From the NCBI RefSeq assembly GCF_000428845.1, contig NZ_AUAS01000012.1, forward strand, positions 1-64,000: a DNA stretch of 64,000 nucleotides. The letters run 5' to 3'. Made by a program: the position numbers and the translations under genes. Positions 7,416-30,353 of this stretch are shown in pieces (position 1 is the first letter of the stretch; the number at the start of each line of letters is the position of its first letter). The notes under the pieces were generated by a model. The model was not told the DNA's origin, made no database searches, and saw nothing but the letters and a program-made list of their open reading frames with translations. This DNA is from Dyadobacter alkalitolerans DSM 23607 (lineage in GTDB: Bacteria; Bacteroidota; Bacteroidia; Cytophagales; Spirosomataceae).

Positions 7416-9905
7416 TTAATCCTGATCAAATCCCTCTTCGTCTTCTTCACCTCCTTTTTCCAGTCTAACGAATGCACCCCGACGCGGAGCAGGCATGATG
7501 CTGTTTTCGCCGCGCACTGTCTGCCATACTATTTCGCTAAAAACCAGGTCATCAATCGCATCGGGAATGGAAAGATCAAACTGGTCTGTTTTACGGGAGT
7601 TTTTATTAACCGCCACATTTTTCTGATCCAGATCCACTCCAGCTTCTTTTGAAGTGAATGTGCCCGGATTAACCTTATTATCAAAACACCTCCACATCGG
7701 TGTGGCCGCCGCATCGTACTGGCTCATGGGCTTGATCCCCAAAATCAACTCCATTGTACGCAGCATACCGGAAGTAGAATACATCGTATGGTCCACAAAC
7801 CCTCTCTTTACAAAACCGCCAGCCACAAATGCAATGGAACGGTGTGCATCCACGTGATCGGGTCCATTCTGAGCATCATCTTCGAGGATGAATACAACTG
7901 ATTCATTCCAAACCTTACTTTTGGAAAGGTGCTCAACAAAGCGCCCAACTGCCAGGTCATTATCAGCCACAGCAGCAAACGGCGTGGGCTTTCCTACACT
8001 GGCACCCGATGTATGATCATTACCAAACCTTAATGTATTCAATCTTGGGAGTTTGCCTGCGGCGAGTAATTCATCAAAATCCTTTTCCCATGCAGCTTCC
8101 CGATCAATATCCTTATAGCCCAGATTATAACCTTTGAAAGTCGGGCAATAATGTCCTTCAAGTGTTTTGATATTGGCTTTCCCCTCGTCTGCAAACCAGC
8201 CGTAACTGCGGAATGTTAGCCCGGCACGCAAGGCATGGTCCCAGATAAATCCGTCCCTGGGATGCGCGATTTCTTTCTGCCCCTCGTAATCATACGTGCC
8301 GCCACGACCTCCATAGCTGGTTACCCAGTTTTTCTCCACATAGTCATTGGCATAAGCAGCCGATGACCAGTTATGCCCGTCGGCACTCACCTCTGCATCG
8401 ACGTAAAAGTTATCGAGTAACACAAACTGACGGGCCAATGCGTGCTGGTTCGGTGTGATCTTTTCAGGAAACAAACAAAGGGAAGGGTCGCCATTTCCTT
8501 CCTTCATATCGCCCAGGACCTGGTCGTATGTACGGTTTTCCTTGATAATGTAAAACACATATTTAATCGGCGATTTATCACCCACTTTCATCGGGATCGG
8601 ATTACCAGCCTCTCCTTCCGCATTCAGCTCCTTATTTTTGGTATAAGGCGTGTTGGCATATACCACACGCGAGTACGCTGAAAGCGTTTGCGCCGAAGGT
8701 GCATCTATGATGGATAATGTACCTTTAAACAATCCTCCGATGTACTGCTCCCTGCCCGTGTATGCCTGCGGATTTGGCCCTACTTGTTGCGGAACTTTTG
8801 ATAAATTCGGGTTTGGACCTTTTGGATTTGCCTTAGACGAAAATCCTTTCCCATTAGTAACAAATATCTTTGAGCCAATTGTTTTCACAGCCGTCGGATA
8901 CCAGCCTGTCGGGATAAATCCGATGGAACGGCTGCGACCTTTGGTTTCTACATCAAAAACTGCCAGGCAATTATTATCAGCATTGGCGATGTATAAGGTT
9001 TTCTCATCTTCACTCAGTGCAAGCCCATTAGGCGTCGTACCCACAGGCGCATCCGGAAAAAGAGAAGTCGTTAATGTTTCCGACACTTGTCTTTTTGCCA
9101 GATCAATGAGCGCCACGGTGTTATCATTGCCGTTGGCTGCATATAAAAACCTGCCATCTCTGGTCAATAGCAGGTCGTTGGGATTTTTGTTGGTCGCAAT
9201 TTCCGCTGCAATCTGCTGTGTTTGTGTGTTTACGACCACCACCCGCGAGCCGCCCCAAAGCGAAACATAAAGCTCTTTTTTATCATTAGAAAGCAAACAG
9301 GTGTAAGCCGCCGCACCTAAGTTTAGCTTACCAATGGTTTTTTTGGTCTGAGCATCACAAACATAAAGCGCGCTGTCTTCTTTGGTCACCACATAAATCC
9401 GATTTTGAGCGTCGTCGACTGCTATTCCGGTAGGAGATATTTTGACGGGCCACGGTTTGCCCAGCACAATCGGCTCAGCAGCAACAAGTTGTTGGTCTTC
9501 TATTTTGTATACCAAAATCTTATTGTCGTTCCCACCTGAGGCATATATCATTTTCTCATCCTGACTGAATGCCAGACCAAGGTATGATTTGGCGACAATG
9601 GCAGTGTCCAGCACTTTCTCGGAAGCCGCGTCAATCAATGTAATGCTTTGGGTGCTCTGCCCGTTGTTAGTGACAGCCAGGTATTTTTTGGAAGGGGAAA
9701 CAACTAAGTTTAAAGGTAGGTCGTCCAGGTCCAGGCTACGGCCTACCGGTGTGAGTGACCAGCCATTGGGCAGGTCAATGCGTTTGGCGGAAAGTTGCTT
9801 ATACAAGGCTAATTCCTCGGATTGACCGCCTGCATTCCTTTTACAGCCGTAGCAGATGATGCCCGCCAGCATCAGGTAAATTGCAAATTTCAGATTTTTT
9901 GTCAT
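7416..9905 (-). CDS. YncE-type beta-propeller/phosphoesterase lipoprotein
   Basis: An 829-residue two-domain protein. A lipoprotein signal ends at Cys21 (GIICYGC). The first half (about 45-400) is a YVTN/YncE seven-bladed propeller, with blades such as IYASGGNDNKILVY, LYVSLWGGSRVVVVNTQTQQ and LYAANGNDNTVALIDL. The second half (about 450-800) is a phosphoesterase-family domain of the acid phosphatase/phospholipase C group: YIIKENRTYDQVLGDM near its start, SADGHNWSSAAYANDYVEKN, and FILEDDAQNGPDHVDAHR with likely metal ligands. It should act at the cell surface or in the periplasm on a phosphate ester. It is the second gene of a minus-strand pair, 31 bases after the TonB-dependent receptor gene, which suggests substrate capture and hydrolysis in one operon. 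Substrate unknown. Confidence 0.88.
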   Translation of the reverse strand: MTKNLKFAIYLMLAGIICYGCKRNAGGQSEELALYKQLSAKRIDLPNGWSLTPVGRSLDLDDLPLNLVVSPSKKYLAVTNNGQSTQSITLIDAASEKVLDTAIVAKSYLGLAFSQDEKMIYASGGNDNKILVYKIEDQQLVAAEPIVLGKPWPVKISPTGIAVDDAQNRIYVVTKEDSALYVCDAQTKKTIGKLNLGAAAYTCLLSNDKKELYVSLWGGSRVVVVNTQTQQIAAEIATNKNPNDLLLTRDGRFLYAANGNDNTVALIDLAKRQVSETLTTSLFPDAPVGTTPNGLALSEDEKTLYIANADNNCLAVFDVETKGRSRSIGFIPTGWYPTAVKTIGSKIFVTNGKGFSSKANPKGPNPNLSKVPQQVGPNPQAYTGREQYIGGLFKGTLSIIDAPSAQTLSAYSRVVYANTPYTKNKELNAEGEAGNPIPMKVGDKSPIKYVFYIIKENRTYDQVLGDMKEGNGDPSLCLFPEKITPNQHALARQFVLLDNFYVDAEVSADGHNWSSAAYANDYVEKNWVTSYGGRGGTYDYEGQKEIAHPRDGFIWDHALRAGLTFRSYGWFADEGKANIKTLEGHYCPTFKGYNLGYKDIDREAAWEKDFDELLAAGKLPRLNTLRFGNDHTSGASVGKPTPFAAVADNDLAVGRFVEHLSKSKVWNESVVFILEDDAQNGPDHVDAHRSIAFVAGGFVKRGFVDHTMYSTSGMLRTMELILGIKPMSQYDAAATPMWRCFDNKVNPGTFTSKEAGVDLDQKNVAVNKNSRKTDQFDLSIPDAIDDLVFSEIVWQTVRGENSIMPAPRRGAFVRLEKGGEEDEEGFDQD

Positions 9906-20376: not shown

Positions 20377-21021
20377 ATGAAGAAACTCTTATTCTCTGCA
20401 TTGATCCTGTCCGGTGCATTTTTCATCGGTTCCTGCACCGACGAATCGGTTGAAAAGAAAGAAGTAGTAGCCGAAGAATTCGACAAAGAAAGGTTTTACA
20501 GTCAAATCAGATCGGTACCTTTTTACATATCAAAAGCTTACCGGGTTGTTGGACAAGACACCATCAACGTGCTGGCAGACTCACTCAAAGTTCGCTACCG
20601 CGATGCTGTTTATGTAACCTTCCAAGCAAGCGGCGGGTCTGGCGAAATAGGTTATGTACAGTATTATGCCGGCTCTGCCTGGACCAATCCACCGTTCGCG
20701 CCGCCCGCAAAGGCTTTTAGTACCGAAATGAAGTTTTCCAGGCCTACCAACATGACTTTCAATTGGGATGATACCAAAAAAACCGTTGTCGTCACCTCTT
20801 CCGGATCTGACAATGCGTTCCGCCTGGTGCCTCCCGGTAAAAGCGCATACCTGGATACCAGCCGTTTTCACTACAATTATGACTTTGAGGCGGCCAAAGC
20901 AGGAGCCGACCAGAGTCTGACCTGGATTTATGATGATTACACCATTGTAATGAAACCCATGTATGTCTTTTACAAACATCCCGACGAGACCCTTTTTTTA
21001 AGAGGCATTGTGGTTTTTTAA
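20377..21021 (+). CDS. Lipoprotein of unknown function
   Basis: A 214-residue lipoprotein. The signal ends in the lipobox FIGSC with acylated Cys20, followed by TDESVEKK, so sorting to the outer membrane surface is possible. The mature part is beta-rich with no membrane segment: VRYRDAVYVTFQASGGSG, IGYVQYYAGSAWTNPPFAPP and LTWIYDDYTIVMKPMYVFYK. No family recognised and no catalytic motif visible. It is not clearly in an operon; the next gene, an FtsX-like permease, starts 146 bases downstream. Confidence 0.7.
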   Translation: MKKLLFSALILSGAFFIGSCTDESVEKKEVVAEEFDKERFYSQIRSVPFYISKAYRVVGQDTINVLADSLKVRYRDAVYVTFQASGGSGEIGYVQYYAGSAWTNPPFAPPAKAFSTEMKFSRPTNMTFNWDDTKKTVVVTSSGSDNAFRLVPPGKSAYLDTSRFHYNYDFEAAKAGADQSLTWIYDDYTIVMKPMYVFYKHPDETLFLRGIVVF

Positions 21022-23934: not shown

Positions 23935-25329
23935 TTACCGAGCGTTAACCGAAGTATAATAGAGCTGCAATTTAACGCTGTTTTTGCTATGGCGCTGATT
24001 GCCGATTACCAGACGCTGGGCGCTTTTGGTAAATTCCGTATCGTAGGTGGGCTGCGCGGCAGTCTCGCTGGTATTGAATGGTGAAGTTCTGAAAATCAAA
24101 CCGGTTGTATTTTCACCACCGGCGGCTAAAACACTTGAAATGTAACCGCCTACATCAAAGAGGTAAAAAGCAGTGTTATTAAGCAGATCAACCTGATATC
24201 TTCCAAAAACGGGCGTTCCCGCCAAAGTCCTTGCCGGTTCAGGAAAGCCCGTGCTTCCTTGAAAGTATTCGTTGTTTTTGTCGACCAGATAGGCATACAA
24301 TGTATCAGGCGCGCGGTAAAAATTTGTCACCGAGCCTGCCAGCGGCGTTACGTGCAAAAATGCTTTGTTAACAACGGTATAGGGGTTGATTTTCAAATCC
24401 ATAATGGTCGGAAAATCAACGCGCGTCATCACACCCAGGCCGGCCTGAACAAAGGACATGTTACCCGATTGCTCAGAAGGCAGGGAAATTCTTTTTGTAT
24501 TAGGAAGCTTAACCAACTGCGTTCCTTTCCGGTCGCTAAGGATCTGATTGTAACCGATGCCGGACTTGATGATTGTTGAATCCCGCTTTACGCCATCGTC
24601 TTCCGTTAAATGATAATGCAGCTGAATGGATGTATGATCATCAAACAATCTGAACCCGACAAGTGGACCATTGTCCGAGGATCCCGGTACCAGTACGAGC
24701 CCTTTAACAAGATCGATCCATTCGGTGTTGCTGGGCAACTGATTGTTTTTACTCATTGAAAAAATCTGCTTTCCCAAAACATCAGAAAGCTTGATTCTAA
24801 GTCTTCCGCTGGATCTTGGAGTGGGAACTACCTTTACTTTGCCTAGTGCCGTCGCCTCGTAAGGCGTCTTATCGGTGTTGTAATATGCATTTTTGTCAAG
24901 CATGTTGGCCAGCAACTTGTGGACGGCAATGTTCATGGCAATCGTAGTATCGCCATACGTATAATTATCGTATCTCAGAGAAAGTACAAGCGAATCGTAA
25001 ACAGCAAGTTCAGGAACTACGAGCGCCGTTTGAATGGTAGGCTGGAAAAATGGAGTAGCTTGAAATTTACCAAAATAAGGGTCAATATTTCTTCCCAGTA
25101 AAAGTCTTCCCGAGCCTCCGGTAAATACTGAGTCTGTTCCAACCGAAGAAAGTGAAACCGATGCCGTATCTGAAAACGCCACGGAAAAGTCATCAACATT
25201 AGGCTGGACGATCGCTTCAATCTGATCACCGGTAGGTTCACAACCAGACAGTGAGGCTGTTACACCCAATATAATCAGTAGTCTAAAAACCGTTGAAGAT
25301 CTTTTAAGAAAATGCGAATTGAATTTCAT
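23935..25329 (-). CDS. DUF4270 lipoprotein
   Basis: A 464-residue lipoprotein; signal ends in SLSGC with Cys30. The mature part matches the DUF4270 family: FSVAFSDTASVSLSSVGTDS and GSGRLLLGRNIDPYFGKFQA near the start, YDSLVLSLRYDNYTYGDTTI, and near the end TTGLIFRTSPFNTSETAAQP with RLVIGNQRHSKNSVKLQLYY. The family is confined to Bacteroidota and has no assigned function; beta-rich, surface-exposed lipoprotein is likely. It has its own promoter (25354-25383) and is divergent from the Kelch/DUF4907 pair. I expect the three to be functionally linked, but the sequence alone does not prove it. Confidence 0.85.
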   Translation of the reverse strand: MKFNSHFLKRSSTVFRLLIILGVTASLSGCEPTGDQIEAIVQPNVDDFSVAFSDTASVSLSSVGTDSVFTGGSGRLLLGRNIDPYFGKFQATPFFQPTIQTALVVPELAVYDSLVLSLRYDNYTYGDTTIAMNIAVHKLLANMLDKNAYYNTDKTPYEATALGKVKVVPTPRSSGRLRIKLSDVLGKQIFSMSKNNQLPSNTEWIDLVKGLVLVPGSSDNGPLVGFRLFDDHTSIQLHYHLTEDDGVKRDSTIIKSGIGYNQILSDRKGTQLVKLPNTKRISLPSEQSGNMSFVQAGLGVMTRVDFPTIMDLKINPYTVVNKAFLHVTPLAGSVTNFYRAPDTLYAYLVDKNNEYFQGSTGFPEPARTLAGTPVFGRYQVDLLNNTAFYLFDVGGYISSVLAAGGENTTGLIFRTSPFNTSETAAQPTYDTEFTKSAQRLVIGNQRHSKNSVKLQLYYTSVNAR

Positions 25330-25353
25330 TTAGTGCAAGAACAGTAAAAAGTG

Positions 25354-25383
25354 CAAAATTATCATATGTAATCTTAATTACAA
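25354..25383 (-). promoter_or_regulatory. Bacteroidota-type promoter of DUF4270 gene
   Basis: Minus strand: TTG at 25383-25381, 19 bases, then TAATTTTG at 25361-25354, an exact TAnnTTTG -7 element. Transcription would begin near 25347, about 18 bases before the ATG at 25329. Confidence 0.65.
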
Positions 25384-25832
25384 CATCATTAAGATAAATG
25401 CGCCAATTTAAAAGTGCATTCACATGTTGCAACAAAAACGCAAAGCGTCACGTAAGGGTTAAAAATGCCAGCAATCAACGCCTGCCATTAGCCTGAATTA
25501 CGCCGCCGATTGTAGTTACGCACTGCGGCAGCAAACAGTGGCAAACCTGCTTGATAAACGTAAAACAGACCAGCCTATCTTAAACCAAACACAACAAAGC
25601 CTTATGACAACATTACGGATGCTACAAACGTTGAATGCAACAGAGAGGGTTAAACTTTTAGACAAAAAGTAACATATAATTTTACTTAGCAGTATCAAGA
25701 TGTTATGTTTGCAAAAAATTTGAAATTCCGTTTGCTGTTTTTAAAGCACTAATCCTTCTGATAGGCATGATTTCAGGGCCGTGTTATTGCCCAATATTCT
25801 TTTGTATCAATTAGTCAAACCATATTTTTTAC
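25384..25832. other. Intergenic region upstream of Kelch gene
   Basis: About 450 bases between divergent genes. It holds ATGTTGCAACA at 25434-25444, one base short of a palindrome that also occurs at 35254-35265, and TATGTTTG at 25704-25711, which fits a -7 element for the Kelch gene but lacks a clear TTG upstream. An open frame of about 42 codons from GTG near 25538 was considered and not accepted. Confidence 0.4.
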
Positions 25833-26861
25833 ATGTTTAATATCTTAAAAAAGACTTCATTAGCCCTTCTGGTTGCGTCAACCGCATTACTTTCGTTCAG
25901 TTGCAGTAAGGATGATCCCGAGGCAGACAAAATTGGAAACTGGTATAGAGCAGGCATTCCCAATTTTGGTGGATCTGCAAGGGCACGTGCAGTAAGCTTT
26001 GTCATTGGAAATAAAGGATATATCGGAACAGGTCTTACAAATGAGACTGTTCAAAGAGTAAAGGATTTTTGGTCTTATGATGCAACAACCAAAATCTGGT
26101 CACAAGTTGCTCCATTCGAAGGGTCAGGAAGAAATGATGCTGTTGCCTTTGTTGTTAATGGAAAGGCTTATGTAGGAACAGGTTTCGACGGCGTGACCAC
26201 AGTAGACGGCGGATACAAAAAGGATTTCTATCAATACGATCCTGCAACCAACAAATGGACAAAAAAGGCGGATTATGCAGGCGGAACACGCCAGTATGCA
26301 ACGGCTTTTGTTGCTGATAACAGAGCATATGTGGGCCTTGGATGGAATGGAAGCGGTTACTATCAGGATTTCTACGAGTACAATGTACAAACTGATAAGT
26401 GGACAGAAGTTGCAACATTCACAGGTGGAAAACGCAGAGGCGCACTAGCATTCACAGTGGGTGGTAAAGCTTATGTAGGCTTTGGTCAAAGCAATTCGGG
26501 CGCCGGATCCGAACCAAAAGATCTTTACAGCTTCGATCCCGCAGGAAACAGCGGAACGGGCGCATGGACCAGAATGGAAACCAACACGGATGATAAATTC
26601 ACCGGAAGAACTTACGCTTTGCCTTTGGTTATCAATGATAAAGCATACATCGTTGGTGGAAATGCCAAGTCGGACACATGGGAATATACACCCGGCACCA
26701 ACACATGGACTGAGGTTGCAAGCTTTGAAGGCGGCCAGAGAGGCTTTGCCGCTGGTTTTGCAATCGGTAACACGGGTTATGTAGGAACAGGCGGAAACAT
26801 TGTTGACGATTTCTGGGCTTTTGATCCTGCTGCTGCCAAAAATGATGACGATAACCTGTAA
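25833..26861 (+). CDS. Kelch-repeat lipoprotein
   Basis: A 342-residue lipoprotein; signal ends in SFSC with Cys24. The rest is a six-bladed Kelch beta-propeller. Each repeat has the GKAYVGTG strand and the FYQYDPATNKWT strand: IGNKGYIGTG, VNGKAYVGTG, ADNRAYVGLG, VGGKAYVGFG, INDKAYIVGG, IGNTGYVGTG, about 50 residues apart. It resembles the NanM-like or generic outer-membrane Kelch proteins, but no catalytic residues can be assigned. It is followed after only 2 bases by the DUF4907 gene, so they form an operon. Upstream, 503 bases separate it from the divergent DUF4270 lipoprotein gene. Confidence 0.9.
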   Translation: MFNILKKTSLALLVASTALLSFSCSKDDPEADKIGNWYRAGIPNFGGSARARAVSFVIGNKGYIGTGLTNETVQRVKDFWSYDATTKIWSQVAPFEGSGRNDAVAFVVNGKAYVGTGFDGVTTVDGGYKKDFYQYDPATNKWTKKADYAGGTRQYATAFVADNRAYVGLGWNGSGYYQDFYEYNVQTDKWTEVATFTGGKRRGALAFTVGGKAYVGFGQSNSGAGSEPKDLYSFDPAGNSGTGAWTRMETNTDDKFTGRTYALPLVINDKAYIVGGNAKSDTWEYTPGTNTWTEVASFEGGQRGFAAGFAIGNTGYVGTGGNIVDDFWAFDPAAAKNDDDNL

Positions 26862-26863
26862 TT

Positions 26864-27214
26864 GTGGGTAGCAAGAAAAAACTCATTTTATTTATAAGCG
26901 TACTGGCCTTTGCTGCTGTAACTTATATCTTTCTTTACAAAGGAGATATTGGTGCAGACGGCAAAGGCCTTCGCCGTCTTAGCGTAGAAGCATTCAAAGT
27001 TGAATCAGGCTGGGGTTACCGCATTCTTGACAACGGCACGCCCATTATTGAGCAGCGCAGCATTCCGGGAATTGCGGGGAACAGAGGCTTTCAGACCGAG
27101 CAGTCGGCCCTTAAAACGGGCAATTTGGTGGAGCGCAAGTTGCAGAGCGGCATTTTTCCACCCTCAGTTTCAGCCAGCGAGCTGGATAGCCTGGGGATTC
27201 AATACGGGCAGTAA
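26864..27214 (+). CDS. DUF4907 protein
   Basis: A 116-residue protein starting with GTG two bases after the Kelch stop codon, so translational coupling is likely. Residues 6-25 are a single membrane helix or uncleaved signal (LILFISVLAFAAVTYIFLYK). The outer part shows the DUF4907 pattern: VEAFKVESGWGYRILDNGTP, IIEQRSIPGIAGNRGFQTEQ, then a helix with LKTGNLVERKLQSGIFPPSV and SASELDSLGI. Function unknown. The gene order Kelch, DUF4907 next to DUF4270 suggests a surface or periplasmic complex. Confidence 0.82.
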   Translation: MGSKKKLILFISVLAFAAVTYIFLYKGDIGADGKGLRRLSVEAFKVESGWGYRILDNGTPIIEQRSIPGIAGNRGFQTEQSALKTGNLVERKLQSGIFPPSVSASELDSLGIQYGQ

Positions 27215-27249: not shown

Positions 27250-28371
27250 TTAATCCTTCTTTGCTTGCTCAGCCGCTCCTGCATCCGCGTGACTGAACTG
27301 GTAATGACCCATCACCGGGTAATGATCCGAGTAATCTACGTTATTGAATGTAGTAAAGTCCTGGATATCAAGCCTGTCGCCACTATAAAACTGGTGGTCT
27401 ATGCGGATAAAATAAGGCAGGTGGTTGAATGTAAAGCCAAAGCCCTCCCCTTTTTCTTCAAATCCGTTTTTAAGCAAGCCGCGCATTTTGCTGTAAACAT
27501 ATCCGTAGGGAATCTCATTAAAGTCGCCGCATACAATGACCGGGTGCGGCGAACCATTGATCCAGGATTCGAGGATTCCCATTTCTACCGATCTTCTCAC
27601 AAAGCCATTCCGCATGCGCTGGAAAGTGATTTTTCCTTCTTTTTTAACGCCCTCGACCTGCTTTTGGCGCACCAGTGTACTGAGCTTTAATGTCATCGAA
27701 TAAAGGTGCACGGCAATGATGCGCACCGTATCTCCCTTTATTTTAATATCTGCTTGGAGAAGACCATTTTGCGCTTCAAAGATCGTATCCCTTTTTGCAA
27801 TGATAGGATATTTGGAAAAAATCGCCAGCCCGGCCGACTGCGTGGGGCTTCCTGATGTGTTCTTAGTGTAAAAGGCGCTGTGGCCATACCCGCTGCTGTC
27901 CAGTGCTCTATTAATATTAAAGAGGTTTCCGCGGTCACTGAAATATTCAGACATGCAGAGAATGTCGGCCTTCGAAGAAGTCATCCACGCTTTCATATCA
28001 CTTACGCTCTGCCTGACGTGGGGATCCTTTAAATCTTCGTTTCTTTGAAAGCTGTGCACATTATAGTTCATCACAGAAAATGACTTAGCCAGCATATCCC
28101 GGTCCGTATCGTTGCCGAAAGAATAAGTCCTAGGCAGAAAAAGCCCGGCCAGGGCGACCATAATCAGCGGAAGCAAAGCCCTTTTTCTTTCAACAATAAA
28201 CCAAATGGGTATACTGACCAGATGAATGATGACGACAACCGGAAAAGACATCATCATAAAACCAGCCACCCACCCTTTGGGCGGGACCCAGAGTATCATG
28301 ATGTAAATCAGCAGGGTATAAGTCGCAAAACACTTGTAGAGGAACCAGAGGAAATTTTTAAACCCTTTCAT
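27250..28371 (-). CDS. Membrane-anchored endonuclease/exonuclease/phosphatase protein
   Basis: A 373-residue protein with three N-terminal membrane helices (about 10-75: LLIYIMILWV, MMSFPVVVIIHLVSIPIWFI, ALLPLIMVALAGLFL) and a C-terminal EEP metallo-phosphoesterase domain facing outward. Motifs in order: VMNYNVHSFQRNEDL, ADILCMSEYFSDRG, AGLAIFSKYPI, VRIIAVHLYS, PVIVCGDFNEIPYGYVY, and the terminal DYSDHYPVMGHY. The Asn, Glu/Ser, Asp-x-Asn and Ser-Asp-His residues of the family are visible. Relatives cleave DNA, inositol phosphates or sphingomyelin, so the substrate is open. It is divergent from the rimP operon. Confidence 0.87.
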   Translation of the reverse strand: MKGFKNFLWFLYKCFATYTLLIYIMILWVPPKGWVAGFMMMSFPVVVIIHLVSIPIWFIVERKRALLPLIMVALAGLFLPRTYSFGNDTDRDMLAKSFSVMNYNVHSFQRNEDLKDPHVRQSVSDMKAWMTSSKADILCMSEYFSDRGNLFNINRALDSSGYGHSAFYTKNTSGSPTQSAGLAIFSKYPIIAKRDTIFEAQNGLLQADIKIKGDTVRIIAVHLYSMTLKLSTLVRQKQVEGVKKEGKITFQRMRNGFVRRSVEMGILESWINGSPHPVIVCGDFNEIPYGYVYSKMRGLLKNGFEEKGEGFGFTFNHLPYFIRIDHQFYSGDRLDIQDFTTFNNVDYSDHYPVMGHYQFSHADAGAAEQAKKD

Positions 28372-28439
28372 TAAGTCAATATCGCATTTTTCAACAAAAA
28401 TAGGGGATCAAGATGAATTTCGAAGACATCTGCTTTAAC

Positions 28440-28470
28440 TTGTACAAATGATAAAATATTTTTACCTTTG
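28440..28470 (+). promoter_or_regulatory. Promoter of the rimP operon
   Basis: TTG at 28440-28442, 20 bases, TACCTTTG at 28463-28470. This is an exact Bacteroidota TTG / TAnnTTTG promoter; transcription would begin near 28477, giving a leader of about 65 bases. Confidence 0.7.
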
Positions 28471-28498
28471 CAAATAATTCTATTTTGATCGATTGATT

Positions 28499-28523
28499 GA
28501 GGGGGTCTTAAATCCCCTTTTTT
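28499..28523 (+). promoter_or_regulatory. Terminator-like leader hairpin before rimP
   Basis: GGGGG (28501-28505) pairs with CCCCT (28514-28518), extended by A-T and G-T pairs at the base, with an 8-base loop and a run of six T. It looks like an intrinsic terminator located between promoter and start codon, 18 bases before ATG 28542. Placement suggests attenuation of the operon, or processing; no alternative antiterminator stem is evident. Confidence 0.55.
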
Positions 28524-28541
28524 ATTTGCAGTAAGCCGTAC

Positions 28542-29024
28542 ATGACAATAAAAGAGCAGTTGGAAGCTTTGCTGGAACCCCTTCTTGAGGATGGCAACTG
28601 TTTCCTTGTAGATATCATCATTAAGCCTTCCAAGGTAAGTCAAAAAGTTTCAATTCTTGTCGATAGCGATGAGGGGATAACCATTCAGCAATGTACATCC
28701 ATCAGCAGAAGATTGGCCAAGCAATTGGAAGAACTGGAAATTTTCGCAGATGCCTACACACTTGAAGTTTCATCACCGGGATTAGACCAACCTTTGCTTT
28801 TGTTGAGGCAATATCAAAAAAACCTGGGCAGAAATTTGAAGGTTACATTAAAAACGGGAGAGGTAATTTCGGGGACATTGATGGAGGCAAATGAAGAAAT
28901 TGTAAAATTACAGTTACCTGCACCTAAAAAGAAGACGAAAACACCCATCGACCCAGCTGAGTTGATCCGGGATATTCCGTTTGACGATATTTCAAAGGCT
29001 TTAATAGAAATTTCTTTTAAATAA
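28542..29024 (+). CDS. rimP: Ribosome maturation factor RimP
   Basis: A 160-residue cytosolic protein needed for late 30S subunit assembly. Residues 1-75 form the N-terminal alpha/beta domain (LEDGNCFLVDIIIKPSKVSQ, VSILVDSDEGITIQQCTSIS) and the motif YTLEVSSPGLDQPL, equivalent to the family's LEVSSPGLDRPL, joins it to the C-terminal SH3-like domain (GRNLKVTLKTGEVISGTLME). First gene of the rimP-nusA-infB operon, with gaps of 87 and 72 bases. It has an identifiable promoter and a terminator-like leader hairpin. Length is normal. Confidence 0.95.
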   Translation: MTIKEQLEALLEPLLEDGNCFLVDIIIKPSKVSQKVSILVDSDEGITIQQCTSISRRLAKQLEELEIFADAYTLEVSSPGLDQPLLLLRQYQKNLGRNLKVTLKTGEVISGTLMEANEEIVKLQLPAPKKKTKTPIDPAELIRDIPFDDISKALIEISFK

Positions 29025-29111
29025 AGTTACAAGCCAGAGCCAGTTTTCTGATTTGTAATCAATTATATAATATGTATAACTTAGTATCAGCAAATATCTA
29101 TAACATAAGCA

Positions 29112-30353
29112 ATGGATAGCGGAATATTAATTGAATCATTTGCCGAGTTCGCAAGCTCCAAAAACATCGATCGTCCAACGATGATCAGTGTTTTGGAAGA
29201 AGTGTTTCGCACAATGATTCGTAAGAAATACGGCACTGATGATAATTTTGATGTAATCATTAACCCAGAAAGCGGTGACCTTGAAATGTGGCGGACACGT
29301 GAGATCGTTGACGACAACTCAGAGGACATTTGGGATTACAACAAAATACCACTTGCAGAAGCCCGCAAAATTCAGGGTGACTTTGAAGTAGGTGAAGAAG
29401 TTGCAGAAGAGGTTAAGCTGGTTGAATTCGGCCGCAGGCTTGTGCAGACGGCAAGACAAACTTTGATCCAGAAGATCAAGGACATGGAAAAAGAAATCAT
29501 GTTCGAGAAATACAAGGATCAGGTAGGTGAAATGATCACCGGCGAGGTTTATCAGACATTACGTCATGAAGTGATCATCGTGGATTCAGAAGGTAACGAG
29601 CTTTCACTTCCACGCACCGAGCAGATTTCAAAAGATCGCTTCCGCAAGGGAGAGTCCGTTAAATCTGTGATCCACAAGGTGGAAATGAATAATGGTTCTC
29701 CAAAGATCACACTATCAAGAACTTCACCTGTTTTCCTTGAAAGACTCTTTGAAGTTGAAATTCCGGAGATTTACGATGGAATTATTTCAGTAAGACGTGT
29801 TGTTCGTGAACCAGGGGAGCGCGCCAAAGTTGCCGTAGAATCCTACGATGACAGAATCGATCCGGTAGGCGCTTGTGTAGGGATGAAAGGATCCCGTATC
29901 CATTCAATCGTACGCGAACTTGGTAATGAGAATATAGATGTTATCAACTACACAGACAACCTTGAACTGCTTATCAGCAGGGCTTTGAGTCCGGCCAAAG
30001 TAAGTTCGATGCAGATTGACCGCGATGCCAAACGTGTTTCTGTTTTCCTTAAACCCGATCAGGTTTCACTTGCAATCGGAAAAGGAGGTCAGAACATTAA
30101 GCTGGCCGGTAAGCTGGTTGGAATGGAAATTGATGTTTTCAGAGATATTGAAGAGCAAAACGATGAAGACGTCGATTTGACCGAATTCTCCGATGAAATT
30201 GATGAATGGATTATCAGTGAACTGCACAAAATCGGTCTGGATACAGCCAAGAGCGTGCTGGCACTTAATAAAGAAGAGCTTGTCAGAAGAACCGATCTTG
30301 AAGAAGCAACGGTTGAAGAAGTTCTTGACATTCTTCGAAAAGAGTTTGAATAA
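29112..30353 (+). CDS. nusA: Transcription termination/antitermination factor NusA
   Basis: A 413-residue RNA polymerase-associated factor for pausing, termination and antitermination. The N-terminal domain (about 1-125) starts ESFAEFASSKNIDRPTMISV and contains EVFRTMIRKKYG; the S1 domain (about 135-205) includes GEMITGEVYQTLRHEVIIVD; two KH domains follow (ACVGMKGSRIHSIVRELGNE and SLAIGKGGQNIKLAGKLVGM). The C-terminus (about 345-413) is acidic with a single helix-hairpin-helix-like repeat (ELHKIGLDTAKSVLALNKEE), the short Bacteroidota form without the second acidic repeat of E. coli. Second gene of the rimP-nusA-infB operon. Confidence 0.95.
   Translation: MDSGILIESFAEFASSKNIDRPTMISVLEEVFRTMIRKKYGTDDNFDVIINPESGDLEMWRTREIVDDNSEDIWDYNKIPLAEARKIQGDFEVGEEVAEEVKLVEFGRRLVQTARQTLIQKIKDMEKEIMFEKYKDQVGEMITGEVYQTLRHEVIIVDSEGNELSLPRTEQISKDRFRKGESVKSVIHKVEMNNGSPKITLSRTSPVFLERLFEVEIPEIYDGIISVRRVVREPGERAKVAVESYDDRIDPVGACVGMKGSRIHSIVRELGNENIDVINYTDNLELLISRALSPAKVSSMQIDRDAKRVSVFLKPDQVSLAIGKGGQNIKLAGKLVGMEIDVFRDIEEQNDEDVDLTEFSDEIDEWIISELHKIGLDTAKSVLALNKEELVRRTDLEEATVEEVLDILRKEFE

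Follow-up and report, generated by a model that had tools for sequence, protein, structure and literature searches.

What is the function of a three-gene locus in Dyadobacter alkalitolerans DSM 23607, in which a gene for a DUF4270 lipoprotein stands next to a gene pair for a Kelch lipoprotein and a DUF4907 protein? The locus lies in a stretch of 64,000 nucleotides (contig NZ_AUAS01000012.1, positions 1 to 64,000; hereafter the window), and an original prediction had described it as a surface locus of unknown purpose. In the present work, we examine it by means of profile searches, structure models, trees and a comparison of loci across the phylum Bacteroidota. We will argue that the DUF4270 protein is almost certainly a BamH-family subunit of the β-barrel assembly machine (BAM). 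For the locus as a whole, we lean very slightly towards an alternative extracellular BAM cap, in which a second type of BamH (BamH2) has Kelch and DUF4907 as dedicated partners and in which the canonical BamH has been replaced.

The three genes lie where they had been predicted, their products match the Pfam families DUF4270, Kelch and DUF4907, and the DUF4270 gene is indeed divergent from the Kelch-DUF4907 pair (Table 1).

Identity of the DUF4270 Protein

A phmmer search with the window's DUF4270 protein against the PDB sequences matched a single relevant chain, 9HJM chain G (E 2.8e-8, residues 17-260), which is titled 'DUF4270 domain-containing protein'. This entry is the BAM complex of Porphyromonas gingivalis (PMC12578637; this paper and PMC12611786, both from 2025, are cited here from part of their text). 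The homology to BamH is clear, and on this ground the protein can almost certainly be assigned to the BamH family, that is, to a surface subunit of the Bacteroidota BAM. Since it matches the BamH of a solved complex, DUF4270 has a known function, and the phrase 'unknown purpose' was for this reason only partly right. Of the two families said to lack a known function, DUF4270 has to be struck out; no paper on DUF4907 was found in the literature searched.

BamADGH has been termed the core of the Bacteroidota BAM (PMC12611786). BamH is a surface lipoprotein that BamG holds above the BamA barrel; it behaves as essential in Flavobacterium johnsoniae, and it can be removed in Bacteroides thetaiotaomicron and P. 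gingivalis, with growth and envelope defects (PMC12578637, PMC12611786). Both papers also report paralogues, BamG2 and BamH2, without a function. The window's protein resembles the canonical BamH (PDB 9HJM; Fjoh_0823, Bt4306, PGN_1735) in being a DUF4270 surface lipoprotein with sequence homology to the P. gingivalis chain. It differs in the location of its gene, which is away from the glgA-glmS interval, and in its probable membership of the Kelch-linked clade.

At least two acidic residues among the six that follow the lipidated cysteine are a sign of a surface lipoprotein (PMC12578637). The DUF4270 protein has a lipobox-like signal (C-EPTGDQ) with at least two such residues, and the same is found for the Kelch protein (C-SKDDPE). 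Among relatives picked by length, a simple pattern detects a lipobox in 48 of the 68 Kelch proteins and in 48 of the 60 DUF4270 proteins linked to Kelch, and at least two acidic residues follow it in 33 and 34 of these 48, respectively.

Two Kinds of DUF4270 Locus

Locus content was determined by a six-frame profile scan; picking open reading frames by length can hide genes under antisense frames. In a sample of 296 genomes of the phylum, DUF4270 was found in 97 and DUF4907 in 24. Kelch adjoins DUF4907 in all 24 loci, and a DUF4270 gene is close by in 21 of them, so that the co-occurrence count proposed with the original prediction comes out above chance. Over all loci examined, Kelch stands beside DUF4907 in 64 of 64 and DUF4270 is present as well in 58, in several gene orders, which bears out the view of an envelope locus whose members belong together.

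Two kinds of locus can be told apart among the DUF4270 loci examined. In one, a canonical BamH gene adjoins glgA, mostly with glmS on the opposite side. In the other, a second clade, BamH2, is found beside Kelch, in most cases together with DUF4907 and, in families other than the window's, often with another BamG. When DUF4270 loci were fetched regardless of DUF4907, 18 of 20 in a first set were glgA-linked and 2 Kelch-linked, and in a second set all 56 were glgA-linked. Where a genome of the phylum sample combines DUF4907 with two DUF4270 genes (14 genomes), the linked copy scores lower than the other.

The arrangement of the linked genes varies. DUF4270 is divergent from Kelch-DUF4907 in the window's genus and in Flavobacterium, and the other 29 linked loci of the window's family have the order Kelch-DUF4907-DUF4270 on one strand. 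Single-strand orders are also found in L088 and L092 (DUF4270-Kelch) and in L075 (Kelch-DUF4907-DUF4270-BamG). In the canonical locus L083, the glgA gene beside BamH is short (8554-9363, 269 residues), and its match to glycogen synthase models is confined to their N-terminal half.

Absence of the Canonical BamH

For the window's family, 121 genomes were sampled. DUF4270 was detected in 114 of them and DUF4907 in 48 (52 loci); five of the seven genomes in which DUF4270 was undetected are under 90% complete. DUF4270 lies within 5 kb of DUF4907 in 39 of the 52 loci, and in the three fetched of the other 13, Kelch is beside DUF4907 each time. A glgA-linked copy is the only one in 74 of the 114 DUF4270-bearing genomes (56 + 18 read). 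The original prediction was to fall if the families were found separately in most genomes. For DUF4270 overall this is the case, because of these 74 genomes and of the 97 against 24 in the phylum; for the BamH2 subfamily and the Kelch-DUF4907 pair it is not.

All 18 family genomes with two DUF4270 copies have one that is linked to DUF4907, and the second copy is glgA-linked in each of the 14 that were read. The DUF4907-linked copy is the only DUF4270 in 21 genomes, namely 10 of 10 in the window's genus, 5 in a second genus and 6 in a third, and one genome (G338) has a single DUF4270 gene that is linked to Kelch without DUF4907. The canonical BamH is missing from 22 of the 40 genomes with a linked copy, compared to 7 of the 81 without one (Fisher p 6e-8, a comparison that counts the seven genomes with no detected DUF4270 and in which related genomes are not independent).

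According to the searches made, DUF4270, Kelch and DUF4907 are each present in a single copy in the window's genome, with two weak further Kelch matches at one other place; for DUF4270, PF14092 and a profile made from 12 canonical BamH proteins each give a single match. The canonical site is empty. BamH is absent between glgA and glmS in every one of the 10 genomes from the window's genus (interval 211-243 bp), in the five from the second genus (121-205 bp) and in a genome of another family, G146 (125 bp). In six genomes of the third genus, neither glmS nor a DUF4270 gene was found within 1.5 kb of glgA. The DUF4270 profile, run in six frames, had no match in any of 23 glgA loci, and the canonical-BamH profile had weak matches in five of the 23. 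The best of these (24.4 bits, L194) falls mainly in a frame overlapping the end of glgA, where canonical BamH also begins, and we therefore do not take it for a relic or a second BamH.

The canonical BamH seems, in other words, to have been replaced by the linked BamH2 in the window's genome and in several relatives. Two observations are new here: BamH2 is associated with Kelch and DUF4907, and genomes that have the linked copy repeatedly lack the canonical BamH.

Exactly one BamG was found in each of 40 family genomes, and BamG2 was not found in the family sample. Both kinds of BamH would therefore have to share that BamG in this family. In the window's genome, it is encoded on another contig, C15 (330 bits, cut-off 250).

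Lineage of the Window's BamH

Whatever its lineage, the only BamH of the genus now adjoins Kelch-DUF4907. It is probable, judging from the sequence comparisons, that the window's DUF4270 protein is of the BamH2 lineage and the sole BamH of its genome; the linked lineage itself is likely, not proven. The scenario to be compared with is that a canonical gene has been relocated beside a resident Kelch-DUF4907 pair, which would make the linkage in the genus incidental.

Three results speak for a relocation. In the approximately unbiased (AU) test, a tree that joins the genus with the family's canonical copies was not rejected (p 0.285). When the profiles are built inside the family, the canonical one outscores the linked one in 9 of the 10 genus members, by 6 to 43 bits. 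In an earlier tree of 56 rows, a canonical copy from the same family (L083) groups with the window's protein within the Kelch-linked set (86/74).

A tree of 94 DUF4270 proteins, on the other hand, places 60 Kelch-linked rows, the window's included, on one side of a branch and 34 canonical rows on the other (Shimodaira-Hasegawa-like approximate likelihood ratio test, 95). This tree was obtained with a short search and no bootstrap, and L088 was taken as Kelch-linked; the 10 genus rows form one group with support 100. With profiles built outside the family, the linked score exceeds the canonical score in all 10 genus members, the difference being 81 to 163 bits. This is above the top canonical control, as the same difference is -3 to 71 bits for canonical and 49 to 130 bits for linked controls from the family. 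At one discriminating column the linked residue is found in 10 of 10 members, although conservation of this column reaches only 76% on either side. The divergent gene order is, moreover, the same as in Flavobacterium. We consequently regard a relocation as improbable.

The Kelch and DUF4907 Proteins

The AlphaFold2 model of the Kelch protein (mean predicted local distance difference test score, pLDDT, 72.2; predicted template modelling score 0.76) has six blades of four strands, with an N-terminal strand closing one blade. About 12 residues separate Cys24 from the first propeller strand at residue 37. Together with the lipobox, the model agrees with the predicted six-bladed Kelch lipoprotein. 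In the PDB, the nearest folds are those of Kelch domains, and several structures among these contain bound peptides; the search returned the six-bladed Kelch domains of human KLHL/Keap1 and the designed SAKe proteins. The C-terminus carries an acidic tail, NDDDNL (window 26841-26858), that is like the tails of the Flavobacterium Kelch proteins, and, of 61 Kelch sequences counted, which include two low-scoring paralogues, 47 have at least three D, E or N among their last seven residues. A mutarotase function was considered and rejected. The protein shares the Kelch propeller with NanM/YjhT-type mutarotases, but its scores with the NCBIfam models are 80.2, 77.2 and 57 bits, against cut-offs of 416, 256.35 and 243.2 bits.

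BamI of B. thetaiotaomicron has a six-bladed propeller that contacts BamH (PMC12578637). The window's Kelch resembles the BamI of the B. thetaiotaomicron and P. gingivalis BAM in being a six-bladed propeller surface lipoprotein, its propeller being that of the model. However, BamI has an N-terminal immunoglobulin-like (Ig-like) domain that Kelch lacks. We do not claim that Kelch is BamI, and the likeness is one of fold. The BamI chain was not among the Kelch matches listed (the best 50 fold rows and the best 60 of 75 others), which excludes nothing.

For DUF4907, the AlphaFold2 model (mean pLDDT 78.6) consists of an N-terminal membrane helix, residues 4-28, followed by three strands and helices. 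The earlier description as a single-helix protein missed the soluble part. Foldseek against the PDB gave no match at E <=0.001 (best 0.17), and a second fold comparison none with Z >=5. At the sequence level, a profile of 38 sequences had one chance-level match in the PDB (E 1.2) and the single protein had none. We assign no function to DUF4907 on the basis of its fold. The window's protein has no lipobox. Among its relatives, the pattern detects one in 14 of 55, with two acidic residues in 1 of these 14, and the Flavobacterium proteins are lipoprotein-like without the acidic run. This lack of an acidic run, together with the helix anchor seen here, suggests that DUF4907 is on the periplasmic side.

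We find it somewhat more probable than the opposite that Kelch and DUF4907 function as components of a BamH2-containing BAM. The window's BamH2 would then work with the genome's single BamG from contig C15. Kelch would be its dedicated surface partner, most likely as a propeller docked on BamH2 in the canopy over BamA, and by analogy with the BamI propeller in Bacteroides it may physically be part of the cap. Its peptide-binding face could hold extracellular parts of client proteins, and DUF4907 would assist Kelch from a membrane anchor, probably on the periplasmic side. The word 'kelch' is absent from the main text of PMC12578637 and PMC12611786, the parts of these sources considered, and no link to Kelch was found in the literature on DUF4907, DUF4270, BamH2 and BamH with BamG.

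BamG2, Control Genes and Alternative Explanations

The window's protein can also be compared with BamG2-BamH2 of B. thetaiotaomicron (Bt1785-Bt1786) and F. johnsoniae, which likewise contain a second, shorter BamH. In B. thetaiotaomicron, BamH2 is in a putative operon with a second BamG (PMC12578637), and the same is seen in the Flavobacteriaceae loci here, in contrast to the window's genome with its single BamG on another contig. The BamH2 of the two papers would correspond to these Kelch-linked loci, for F. johnsoniae by way of related species.

Apart from the window, DUF4270 is present in 20 of 23 phylum loci with DUF4907, and a BamG-like homologue stands beside it in 18 of the 20 (396 bits against the NCBIfam BamG cut-off of 250 in the one example tested). 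Directly after DUF4907, genes for a histidine kinase and a LytTR response regulator follow in 14 of the 23 (domains from one example). The Flavobacteriaceae set consists of the best 80 of 138 relatives found with a Flavobacterium BamH2, nearly all of them titled Flavobacterium; F. johnsoniae itself is not in the set. In these 80 loci, a BamG gene comes right after BamH2 every time, and within about 21 kb there are Kelch, the histidine kinase and the LytTR regulator in 79 each and DUF4907 in 76 (one locus is incomplete). A DUF6268 outer-membrane protein is encoded upstream of Kelch in L061 (8090-8929), with a homologue in 75 of the 80.

These control genes raise another option, an outside-in sensor, in which Kelch senses the condition of the surface or of the BAM and DUF4907 passes the signal across the periplasm to the LytS-type kinase and LytTR regulator, switching BamG2-BamH2 on. 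Their position after DUF4907 and their presence in 79 of the 80 Flavobacteriaceae loci speak for this, as does a kinase and regulator upstream of Kelch in the third genus of the family, and the F. johnsoniae BamG2/BamH2 homologues were not appreciably expressed in rich medium (PMC12611786). However, such a kinase/regulator pair is missing from the neighbourhood of the window's locus and of the nine other genus loci read, and we give the sensor only a small chance.

It is possible, although we put it forward only tentatively and as rather less probable than not, that the BAM cap is exchangeable in Bacteroidota, with a BamH2-Kelch-DUF4907 module that is the only cap in several lineages, has Kelch and DUF4907 as new subunits, and in Flavobacterium comes with its own BamG2 and two-component control.

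Besides the lineage results above, a number of observations weigh against an alternative cap. BamG2 and BamH2 were undetected by proteomics in B. thetaiotaomicron, and a bamH bamH2 double deletion resembles bamH alone (PMC12578637); BamH2 is therefore not necessarily a working cap everywhere. One third-genus genome counted as having the linked copy only (G353) has a weak second DUF4270 fragment (20.7 bits, under the cut-off). BamH2 and Kelch occur without DUF4907 in five loci (L082, L088, L092, L290, L302), and Kelch-DUF4907 occurs without DUF4270 in 6 of 64. In two of these six (L159 4901-10199 and L138 3-5475), DUF4907 is beside giant Kelch frames of more than 1,650 codons with β-helix or Ig-like domains, a second kind of Kelch-DUF4907 pair.

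Such loci show the pair to have a life of its own, as would be expected if Kelch were instead a client. BamH2, with BamG2 where present, would in that case be a dedicated platform for assembling or docking Kelch, with DUF4907 as a periplasmic escort. A sole BamH should, however, serve all BamH clients, and a platform for one client is unlikely to replace a core subunit; we consider this explanation unlikely. As a separate observation, L073 (6178-10158) has three tandem Kelch genes followed by one DUF4907, with DUF4270 not nearby.

Features of the Window

The Kelch and DUF4907 genes had been said both to overlap and to be 2 bases apart. The gap is correct, from the Kelch stop at 26861 to a GTG start at 26864, and there is no overlap in the window; an overlap of 4 bases is found in 5 of 9 congeners measured. 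Between the divergent genes, candidate -7 elements were sought in an alignment of 9 of the 10 genus regions. They are so called on the ground of TAnnTTTG, which we take to be the -7 consensus. At the TAATTTTG site, this pattern is kept in two further regions beyond the identical ones.

Table 1. Positions of the locus genes and candidate promoter elements in the window.
Feature	Position	Strand	Basis
DUF4270 surface lipoprotein, 464 residues, probably BamH2 type	23935..25329	-	PF14092 101 bits, cut-off 27
Kelch six-bladed β-propeller lipoprotein, 342 residues	25833..26861	+	several Pfam Kelch models above cut-off
DUF4907 protein, 116 residues	26864..27214	+	PF16250 74.6 bits, cut-off 25
TATGTTTG, candidate -7 element, Kelch-DUF4907 transcript	25704..25711	+	8/8 bases invariant, 9 intergenic regions
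TAATTTTG, candidate -7 element, DUF4270 gene	25354..25361	-	5/9 aligned regions identical

Downstream of Kelch-DUF4907 (27250-30353) there are a phosphatase-family gene, RimP and a gene for a 413-residue protein, and the other nine genus loci have genes of the same length and strand there. A 214-residue protein with a lipoprotein-like N-terminus is encoded at 20377-21021; it matched no Pfam family at E 0.1.

Conclusion

The canopy of the Bacteroidota BAM was described in 2025 with BamG2 and BamH2 left without a role, and the present locus names two likely partners of BamH2. DUF4907, for its part, gains a constant neighbour in Kelch. The results suggest that, in several genera, one core subunit of the BAM has been replaced in nature. 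In these organisms, the Kelch-linked BamH must do the job, and its function is therefore directly testable there. If the cap is indeed exchangeable, the unexplained BamG2 and BamH2 paralogues would gain a function.

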